From a virus: 32,615 nucleotides of DNA. The notes beneath the pieces were generated by a model. The model did no database searches, was not told where the DNA came from, and worked only from the letters and a program-made list of their open reading frames with translations. The DNA is taken from positions 1 through 32,615 of the IMG/VR virus record IMGVR_UViG_3300034685_000271; one strand, written 5' to 3'. The position numbers and the translations under genes are program-made. Shown piece by piece: positions 3,262 to 6,691 of the stretch. The first letter of the stretch is position 1. The number at the start of each line of letters is the position of its first letter.

Positions 3262-3403
3262 AAATCTTGGAAGTGTATGAGGTGGTTACTTCGCTGGTTG
3301 AGCGTGAGGTCGATGGGTTCGAATCCCATCCAGCTTGGAGGAATCCAGCTGTAGCTCAGTGGTAGAGCGCAATTACACCACCTCAAAAGTTACTCCAAGA
3401 TTT
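3262..3403 (+). ncRNA. YrlA-like Y RNA with permuted tRNA-like module
   Basis: Outer helix: AAATCTTGGA (3262-3271) with TCCAAGATTT (3394-3403), 10 perfect pairs. Next comes the GGAAGTGTA ... AGTTACTCC bulged stem, then an inner helix TGAGGTGGT (3278-3286) with ACCACCTCA (3377-3385), 9 perfect pairs. The enclosed domain is a tRNA cut at the anticodon: variable-loop-like AGGTC (3307-3311); T arm GATGGG-TTCGAAT-CCCATC (3312-3330); acceptor-like stem CAGCT/AGCTG plus GGA/TCC (3331-3351) capped by GNRA loop GGAA; T8-A9 equivalents; and D arm GCTC-AGTGGTA-GAGC (3354-3368). This is the known YrlA architecture, in which the Y stem replaces the anticodon arm and the effector module mimics tRNA. It cannot be aminoacylated, having no free CCA end. 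Confidence 0.88.
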
Positions 3404-3465: not shown

Positions 3466-5019
3466 ATGGCAAAGTTTCAAAAACAGTATCGAGAAAGAGC
3501 GTTCACAAGAAACTACGAAGGAGAGAAGGTTTATCGTATGACTCCCGAGATGGAGTTGTACGAAAGAGTATTGACAAATCTTGTAGGTGAAAAGAAATTC
3601 TATACTTCGGGGGAGAAAGACTTAGAAGACTTGAAAAACGCTGTGCAAAGAGTTTTGGAAAGAGACCCGAAGTTTGTTTTACAGCTCGCAAACTACGCTC
3701 GAAACTTCATGCATTTGCGTTCAGTTCCTATTCTCTTGCTGGTTTTAGCTTCGTTGCATGATGGGGCAAAACCATATGTCAGGGAGTATACACCAAAAAT
3801 TGTGAAAAGAGCCGATGAACTTGCAGAAGTTATATCCCTCTTCAATCTTTTAGTTGGGGATATCGGAGATGCGTCACCAAAAGGTTCTTTGCCTGCGTCT
3901 TTGAAGAAAGGACTGGCTGATACTTTTGAAACTTTCGACGAGTATCAGCTTAACAAATACAAGAAAGGGTTAAAAGATGTGTTGAGAATCACGCATCCGA
4001 AACCAAAGAACGAATATCAGAATCAGCTCTATAGATATCTTATATACGACGAGGTAGGAGAGGAACTGAAACAAATACGAGCCTTGAAGCAATTGCTCCA
4101 AAAACATGAATTCGATGATGAAGCAATAGAACTCATTCGTGAGTCTCACGCTACCTGGGAGGTTGCAGTCTCAAAATTTGGGAACAAAGCTGAGGTGTGG
4201 AATGCTTTGGAATTGCCTTTTATGGCTGGGTTGAGAAATCTTAGAAACTTATTAGAAGCAGGAGCATATCAAGCTTTGGATAGAGTTATTGCGATGTTGA
4301 AAGATGAAAAATCAGTATTGAACTCGAAGCAATTCCCGTTCCGTTTCTTTTCGGCTTACCGTGAAGTGAAGGACCTGTATAATGTTTCGGGAGAATACAA
4401 AGCAAAAGTGCTGAAAGCTCTTGAAATTGCTATATTCCTATCAGTGAGGAACATACCAAAACTTCATGGAAACACAGCAATATTTGTAGACACTAGTGGG
4501 TCTATGACAAATTATTTATCAGAGCATTCGAAGGTTACTTATGTTGATATAGCTAGTCTAATGGGAGCTGTATCACATATGATATCCGACAAGTCTTTGG
4601 TGATTGCTTTTGCGTCAACCGCAGAAGAAGTAGTGCTAGATAAGGATGGAAGCATATTCGAGAATATGAAAAGAATTCAAAATACAGAAGTAGGATATTC
4701 TACATATGTTGAAGAAGCGATGGAGTTGTTAGAAAAATCAGAGTTTGAACCGGACCGAATACTATTATTCTCCGATATGCAGGTCTATTCGCAGTATGGA
4801 AGCGACAATGCTCGAAAAAGTATATCGCACTATTTAGAAGCTCATGGGCATCCACATTTTTACTCCTTCGATCTTGCTGGATACGGAACTTCAGTTCAAC
4901 CGCTTTGGAAAAAAGGAGTTACCTTATTTAGCGGTTGGAGCGAGAAAATGTTGAACTATATTGCTCTTTCTGAAAAGGAAGATTTCAGGATATTGGAAGA
5001 AATCAAGAAAAATTATTGA
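3466..5019 (+). CDS. rsr: Ro60/Rsr ortholog (TROVE + vWA domains)
   Basis: The 517-aa protein matches the length and layout of Ro60 family proteins (about 530 aa). An N-terminal TROVE module of HEAT-like helices spans about residues 15-330 and would form the RNA-binding ring. A C-terminal von Willebrand A domain follows, with a complete MIDAS: DTSGS (342-346), T413 in GYSTY and D437 in FSDMQ. Ro60 binds Y RNAs on the ring's outer face and misfolded or single-stranded RNA ends through its pore; in bacteria a Y RNA can tether it to PNPase for RNA degradation. ATG follows GGAGGTG. Two Y RNA-like genes lie directly upstream. No RtcB/RtcA repair genes accompany it, unlike the RtcR-type operon. Confidence 0.95.
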   Translation: MAKFQKQYRERAFTRNYEGEKVYRMTPEMELYERVLTNLVGEKKFYTSGEKDLEDLKNAVQRVLERDPKFVLQLANYARNFMHLRSVPILLLVLASLHDGAKPYVREYTPKIVKRADELAEVISLFNLLVGDIGDASPKGSLPASLKKGLADTFETFDEYQLNKYKKGLKDVLRITHPKPKNEYQNQLYRYLIYDEVGEELKQIRALKQLLQKHEFDDEAIELIRESHATWEVAVSKFGNKAEVWNALELPFMAGLRNLRNLLEAGAYQALDRVIAMLKDEKSVLNSKQFPFRFFSAYREVKDLYNVSGEYKAKVLKALEIAIFLSVRNIPKLHGNTAIFVDTSGSMTNYLSEHSKVTYVDIASLMGAVSHMISDKSLVIAFASTAEEVVLDKDGSIFENMKRIQNTEVGYSTYVEEAMELLEKSEFEPDRILLFSDMQVYSQYGSDNARKSISHYLEAHGHPHFYSFDLAGYGTSVQPLWKKGVTLFSGWSEKMLNYIALSEKEDFRILEEIKKNY

Positions 5020-5044
5020 GAGGGGTATTCGCCCCTCTTTTTTT
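5019..5044 (+). terminator. Intrinsic terminator after rsr
   Basis: AGAGGGG (5019-5025, overlapping the stop codon) pairs with CCCCTCT (5032-5038) around a 6-base loop and is followed by a run of T to 5044. Confidence 0.88.
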
Positions 5045-5056
5045 GTACGAATATGT

Positions 5057-5150
5057 GTCAACTACCCACCACCTATAGAGGTGGAGGCTTGCAAAAGCCT
5101 TAGTTGACTACCCTCAGCCATTGGTTGGTGGAAAGTTCCAAATTTTTTAA
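5057..5150 (+). other. Three-way-junction element resembling an IS200/IS605 end or small RNA
   Basis: GTCAACTA (5057-5064) pairs perfectly with TAGTTGAC (5101-5108). Inside are two hairpins with almost no unpaired bases: CCACCT-ATAG-AGGTGG (5069-5084) and AGGCTT-GCAA-AAGCCT (5085-5100). A weak hairpin (TGGA/TCCA) and a T run follow to about 5148. The start GTCAACTACCCACC recurs at 10940. Such hairpins with CCCACC motifs resemble the structured ends and guide-RNA scaffolds of IS200/IS605 elements as I remember them, but no tnpA or tnpB is present, so this would be a relic or a miniature derivative. A free-standing phage RNA is an alternative. Confidence 0.55.
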
Positions 5151-5353
5151 TAAGAAATTTTAGATATGAAAACACTTTTATATATATTAATCCCCCCTAT
5201 AGGCCGCTAAGCACCAATACCAAAAAAGAGCATAAACGCTTTATTTATGAGCTTTCGATACACAACTCGAAACTAAAATGTTTGAAATAAAAATAATTTA
5301 CTTACTTTTAACATAAACGTTTCTCTCCCTTAACACATAAATATTGATTATGG
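5151..5353. other. Noncoding AT-rich stretch with short inverted repeats
   Basis: I see no gene here. The stretch holds a CATAAA/TTTATG inverted repeat (5231-5249), TTTCGA/TCGAAA (5253-5272) and repeated CATAAACG words (5231, 5312). They lie upstream of the early extended -10 promoter and could be operator sites; nothing else is supported. Confidence 0.4.
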
Positions 5354-5362
5354 TGGTATAAT
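5354..5362 (+). promoter_or_regulatory. Extended -10 promoter of the early block
   Basis: TGG followed by a perfect TATAAT (5357-5362) forms an extended -10 element; no good -35 lies at the usual distance. Transcription would start near 5369, leaving a leader of about 95 nt before the first early gene. Confidence 0.6.
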
Positions 5363-5463
5363 GTAATTGCAAACGAAAGAAAAGAAAAAAATAAGGGTCT
5401 TTGAAAAGTGAATAGGAAAGCAAAAAATTTGAATTAAAAAATAAAAAAATGGGAGGGGATATT

Positions 5464-5931
5464 ATGATGAGGAGTTTCAAGATTGAGAATGGTGCACTTG
5501 TGGAGGTACCGATTTTTGAAGAACACAAAAGAGGGAAAAACTGGATGGCAAAGATTTCTTTCGATCCGAGGTCTCCGGCAGGATTGAGCAGAGAGTTCAT
5601 GGTTCGTGCAAGAGGCAAATACTTTTATATGGTTGAGGGGCTGAAAGTTGGGGACGCAATTGAGTTTGGAGCCGATTACTATACAACATCTAGAAAAAGA
5701 CACACAAACAGAGTTTACGCAGCTGTTGTTGCATTAACATCTACAGAATTAACTCTCGAATTATACAGCACATCTAGCGAAGCAATTGAGGCAGCAAAGA
5801 AGATAAAAGAAACAGCAGAAAATGCAGAAGAAGTTGAAGCACCAAGCGAGCTGGAAAGGTTTTCTGATGCAGAATTGATCGCTGAACTTGAAAGAAGAGG
5901 CTATAAAATAATAAAGGAGGAGAAATTATGA
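5464..5931 (+). CDS. Hypothetical early protein
   Basis: I do not recognise this 155-aa protein. The first two thirds look like a compact beta-rich domain with many basic and aromatic residues (MVRARGKYFYM, YYTTSRKRHTNR). It is followed by an acidic helical linker and a C-terminal helix pair ending SDAELIAELERRGYKI, which resembles a small SAP/LEM-like end. No TM or signal peptide. The start is ATG 5464 (or 5467) because GGGAGGGG precedes it; an in-frame ATG at 5449 lies before that RBS. It is the first gene after the extended -10 promoter and overlaps the next gene by ATGA. Confidence 0.75.
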   Translation: MMRSFKIENGALVEVPIFEEHKRGKNWMAKISFDPRSPAGLSREFMVRARGKYFYMVEGLKVGDAIEFGADYYTTSRKRHTNRVYAAVVALTSTELTLELYSTSSEAIEAAKKIKETAENAEEVEAPSELERFSDAELIAELERRGYKIIKEEKL

Positions 5932-6403: not shown

Positions 6404-6691
6404 ATGGTAAAAAAGAATTTGGTGAAATTGGCAAAGTTTCTAAGAAAAAGGGCTAAGGGCGGGGGGGTTAAATTAACACTCCCCCAATCTAAAACTCTCG
6501 CGAGGATTATAACTCGCAGAGGGCGTTGGCGGAGAGGTTTTGGGGTAACAGACTTTGTTGCAATCGGGCTCTCCCAGGGCGATGCAACAAAGTTATGGTT
6601 GTTGCTTTTGGACCAGGACGACCCAAATGCCTGGGATTCCTGGGGGCTCAAACAAGATATTCTCAAAATTGTGTTCAAATTAAATCTTTAA
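6404..6691 (+). CDS. Hypothetical small basic protein
   Basis: The 95-aa protein is strongly basic in its first half (KKNLVKLAKFLRKRAKGGG; RRGRWRRGFG) and hydrophobic/acidic in the second (KLWLLLLDQDDPNAWDSWG). The basic half could bind nucleic acid. Local GC content in its central part is higher than in flanking genes, hinting at recent acquisition. GAGGTG lies before the ATG. I cannot name a family. Confidence 0.6.
   Translation: MVKKNLVKLAKFLRKRAKGGGVKLTLPQSKTLARIITRRGRWRRGFGVTDFVAIGLSQGDATKLWLLLLDQDDPNAWDSWGLKQDILKIVFKLNL

Follow-up and report, generated by a model that had tools for sequence, protein, structure and literature searches.

A probable relic of an IscB-type transposon left end behind the rsr terminator of a phage genome

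The region behind the rsr terminator

The window, by which we mean the whole stretch of 32,615 bases that was analysed, is a virus contig with terminase, major capsid and tape-measure genes. Its rsr gene is followed on the plus strand by a terminator at 5018-5044, with the stem at 5018-5039 and a T run that ends at 5044, and 12 nt separate the end of this run from position 5057, where a compact folded element starts, as an earlier note made from the letters of this DNA had stated. The same note held that no gene accounts for the element, and indeed no open reading frame of at least 80 aa overlaps its junction. Promoter-like matches in 4900-5500 number four against 2.3 in shuffled sequences (sd 1.3), which is close to chance, and none of them stands upstream of the element on its strand. 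At the other end of this phage rsr (TROVE) gene, directly upstream of it, a probable Y RNA (Rfam YrlA) occupies 3266-3402, with 32.8 bits (E 1.4e-5 in 321 bases) and below the gathering score of 69; it contains D-arm-like and T-arm-like motifs, and ARAGORN finds no tRNA in it.

Positions 5057-5108 of the plus strand form a three-way junction with helices of 8, 6 and 6 pairs, on which RNA and DNA folding agree. Helix 1 joins 5057-5064 to 5101-5108, helix 2 joins 5069-5074 to 5079-5084 under an ATAG loop, helix 3 joins 5085-5090 to 5095-5100 under a GCAA loop, and only the four junction bases 5065-5068 remain unpaired; helices, tetraloops and unpaired bases are thus those already described in the earlier note. 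A stretch of 101 nt was more stable than all of 200 dinucleotide shuffles (z -3.38 as RNA, -4.12 as DNA). To this we can add the comparison among relatives in alignment A1, a selection of copies made of the window and 22 chosen relatives (23 aligned copies, 18 distinct), where 93.6% of cells are paired, double-sided changes occupy 25 cells against a shuffled mean of 8.2, and the covariation score is 0.228 for the junction of the window against at most 0.106 for slid versions. Since pairing and covariation are kept across the aligned copies, the junction is a conserved RNA feature and not a chance fold: it is real, and it is already known in kind.

Homology to the HEARO RNA of IscB nucleases

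IscB nucleases are small, are related to Cas9 and bring their own guide RNA with them. This omega-RNA is the HEARO RNA (Rfam RF02033), and a permissive Rfam scan matched this family to 5057-5220 with 33.5 bits (E 1.2e-4 in 2,361 bases and 2.4e-5 in 451 bases; 4.0e-7 in a one-family search of the 32,615-base record). At the gathering threshold no Rfam family was reached in the whole window, HEARO standing at 33.5 bits against a threshold of 83. The full alignment suggested that 5057-5220 is a complete HEARO in reduced form; this reading was rejected because the score rises to 35.0 bits when 5057-5121 is taken by itself, without 5122 onward, and because the downstream DNA (5109-5450 by itself) gives no HEARO match in Rfam.

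The boundary became clear from the comparison with other viral contigs. Positions 5057-5120 are identical in 64 of 64 bases to two HEARO copies, L007:2876 and L008:1705, and divergence from both begins at 5121; past the identical bases L008:1705 continues as an ordinary HEARO, and L007:2876 does likewise until its contig ends. The plus-strand stretch 5057-5120 is therefore the full extent of the common transposon sequence, and position 5150, where the earlier note had closed the element, is no natural boundary. The AT-rich intergenic DNA that follows (5121-5450, plus strand) has neither HEARO content nor a transposon right end. Taken together, the identity over 64 bases and the absence of HEARO content downstream indicate an IscB-type left end that breaks off behind the guide-adaptor domain. 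By its position, and in agreement with the folds, the 35.0 bits and the covariation, the junction at 5057-5108 (plus strand) would be the 5' guide-adaptor domain of the HEARO omega-RNA together with the left-end palindromes of the transposon. The likeness to IS200/IS605 ends or omega-RNA scaffolds remarked on before was hence correct in kind, the element being an IscB-type left end with the first omega-RNA domain.

The first domain of HEARO is the same as our element in sequence, in three-way fold and in left-end position. However, complete copies score 129-177 bits against 35.0 bits here, where just the first 64 nt of a scaffold of about 210 nt are left, and the nexus stem, central stem, pseudoknot and 3' hairpins that HEARO possesses were not found; the scaffold motifs TACGTT and AACATTGG are likewise absent here. 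The IscB-type (ISC, IS200/IS605-like) transposons in L012, L005, L022 and L024 have their left end in common with the window but also carry iscB and a right-end hairpin, and neither was found in it. For the IscB N-terminal domain (PF14239, RRXRR) the window had no match, nor did any control genome, and the model does match three of seven related records (L012, L005 and L008). The right-end hairpin had no match in the window with up to 3 mismatches, and none was recognisable among the generic hairpins of the window that are followed by GTCT or GACTTC. The Y1 transposase (PF01797) and TnpB (PF07282) are both absent from the record, with matches in 5 and 6 of 14 control genomes, respectively, and on this point too the earlier note was right. 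Many IS200/IS605 elements have no Y1 transposase of their own. Among named phages there was no strong match to the element, the best one (H1) having an E of 1e-3 and 75% identity over 69 bases.

Intact, truncated and solitary copies

Homologous copies were collected in viral contigs by a 12-locus scan and a relaxed 31-stretch scan (32 matches), from which L026, L027, L031, L034, L035 and L042 were dropped by eye as chance matches in which helices 2 and 3 are absent, so that 26 copies remained. Rfam was used to check L029, L030, L032, L033, L040, L041 and L044, plus the copies of four records, and the remaining ones were classed by reading their sequence. In intact copies iscB lies directly downstream, as a frame of 425 aa in L012 and 437 aa in L005. 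When genome contigs were searched, a specific 28-base pattern gave no match and a looser one gave six loci, in Geobacillus and Anoxybacillus, with frames of 424 codons downstream in L022 (Anoxybacillus) and L024 (Geobacillus). The elements end in a right-end hairpin followed by GTCTYCT or a similar sequence. In L029 this hairpin carries the core CACCTATAGAGGTG, the same that is found in helix 2 of the left end in the window, and the palindromes of the two ends (CCACCTATAGAGGTG on the right of L029, CCACCTATAGAGGTGG on the left in the window) are alike, a likeness which suggests that one transposase may bind both ends.

In an intact copy the stretch would thus have two roles. At the RNA level it would supply the guide adaptor of the omega-RNA, placed immediately 3' of the guide. 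In single-stranded DNA, a TnpA transposase would recognise its palindromes as the hairpins of the left end.

Fourteen of the 26 copies in the relaxed viral scan reach the end of the scaffold or iscB, and five are cut by the end of a contig or locus. Truncated left ends are common, since seven copies stop within the scaffold: four of them (3 sites) do so further inside, at about 150-160 in L008:5236, 118 in L032 and 78-100 in L033 and L039, and three (2 sites), L030, L040 and L044, after only 50-66 nt. L040 and L044 have no Rfam match at E 0.01 and are assigned by their identity to L021 (65/66 and 66/66). Besides the one in the window, two solo copies stop at the base of helix 1 or close to it. 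Fragments shorter than these were invisible to the scan, whose pattern demanded an intact helix 1. Such scattered breakpoints resemble ordinary decay.

A few of these records deserve a separate mention. Two metagenomes have a solo left-end junction at one and the same phage site, L040:1926 and L044:3874, and about 800 nt downstream of the junction L040 has a minus-strand frame that is TnpB-like by eye. In two phage contigs, L029 (reverse complement, 732 onward) and L041:533-880, a complete HEARO omega-RNA (159.1 and 153 bits) without iscB is followed within about 400 nt by a right-end hairpin; these are candidate trans-acting guide RNAs mobilised as MITEs. L008:1705-2335 and L011:6812-7420 appear as internal-deletion derivatives that keep the right end and an omega-RNA complete by its end motif, with iscB shortened to a frame of 106 codons in the former and to a short in-frame remnant in the latter. 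In L008:5236-5910 a phage gene (5465-5806) lies between a truncated HEARO left end and an IscB right-end hairpin; by eye it resembles the window ORF 6404-6691, and the transposon ends may have captured it. Finally, the G004 record (L005, L006), a viral contig of 112 kb, contains three HEARO RNAs and three IscB domains.

A probable transposon relic and its alternatives

On this evidence we consider it very probable that the element is the truncated left end of an IscB-type (ISC, IS200/IS605-like) transposon, lying in a phage just after the rsr terminator. In the rsr relatives L002 and L003 the terminator is common through TTTTTTGTACGAA and the element is absent, so that either the lineage of the window gained it or theirs lost it. 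On the right side the match of L025 is confined to 5467-5917, which leaves no empty-site comparison there, and consequently the event that removed the remainder is not visible; patterns taken from the flanks of the solo copies L030 and L040/L044 matched no contigs but these themselves. As everything past 5120 has been lost, the piece should neither guide IscB nor transpose, and with its right end missing it should not move. By homology it is of a known kind, and none of the tests made identifies it as a functional HEARO or transposon; most likely it is an inert fossil, too young to have acquired mutations. Some observations go against a relic, namely a HEARO score far below the Rfam gathering threshold of 83, a junction free of mutations, the recurrence of solo copies and the fact that two others of these stop at the base of helix 1 or close by, perhaps a sign of a retained unit. 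What had been suspected to be a new guide-RNA scaffold is in our opinion settled as a remnant of a transposon class already known. Phages are visited by IscB-type elements, which leave debris behind, and compact, stable, gene-less folds in phages should be viewed with caution, because they can be transposon ends.

The position of the guide deserves attention. In the solved IscB complex the omega-RNA begins with the guide, its 5' segment, and the guide-adaptor hairpin follows directly (PMC9640706). The guide would therefore precede the GTCAAC arm, at 5041-5056 (plus strand), and the suggestion of the earlier note to look for it after the GTTGAC arm is wrong for the IscB class. If the omega-RNA were intact, this segment would be the guide; here it belongs to the phage flank and is made up largely of the end of the rsr terminator, and the flank through TTTTTTGTACGAA follows rsr also in L002 and L003, which have no element. 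The 16 bases before the element match the window once besides themselves, with 3 mismatches, which is near chance. An RNA from the window could carry a guide (5041-5056) but would be without most of the protein-binding scaffold. The idea of a domesticated guide-RNA scaffold, also raised in that note, is not supported, given how little of the scaffold is left and that no IscB domain was found, and the truncated copies of several lengths in other phages speak against it as well.

Could the phage have kept the guide-adaptor domain for another use? Solitary CRISPR repeats occupy Cas proteins, and by comparison a retained and transcribed domain might act as an RNA decoy that occupies the IscB of the host, a reading to which its 64 unmutated nt and the solo copies in the phage contigs L030 and L040/L044 lend some weight. 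However, the element sits after a terminator, with no promoter-like match upstream on its strand in 4900-5500; the nexus, central stem and pseudoknot, which IscB contacts (PMC9640706), are missing; and truncations at other lengths are equally common. We therefore regard a decoy as improbable. Its more general form, in which the solo junctions of the window, L030 and L040/L044 are all kept by phages to jam IscB from the host or from rival elements, as an RNA-based anti-OMEGA factor, is a little harder still to credit; a true decoy would amount to an RNA inhibitor of an OMEGA nuclease.

A second possibility is a minimal mobile unit (MITE), made of the 64-nt left end and an unrecognised right end and moved by TnpA in trans. 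Both ends do occur without an intact iscB in other phage contigs (L008:1705, L011, L029 and L041), but the right-end hairpin was not found in the window, and the search of viral contigs gave no other copy with this right junction, the sole match (L016) being an unrelated stretch of 17 bases. A 16-base pattern from about 5201 on matched L017 and L018, with no homology past the matched stretch in the sequence read. This possibility too appears improbable.

The ends of repeats often break metagenome assemblies, and the L007 contig ends inside its own HEARO copy. An assembly chimera at a repeated transposon end is nevertheless very unlikely, as the junction after 5120 would still need some truncated copy, and one solo junction is present in two records, L040 and L044. 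Lastly, the compact and stable fold might have suggested the omega-RNA of TnpB or a wholly new small RNA, a reading to which we assign next to no probability: although TnpB omega-RNAs and IS605 right ends belong to the same broad OMEGA class of mobile element, the TnpB omega-RNA is a different RNA, with its guide on the opposite side from that of IscB, and the close match to the HEARO 5' domain, in a record without a TnpB domain, refutes it.
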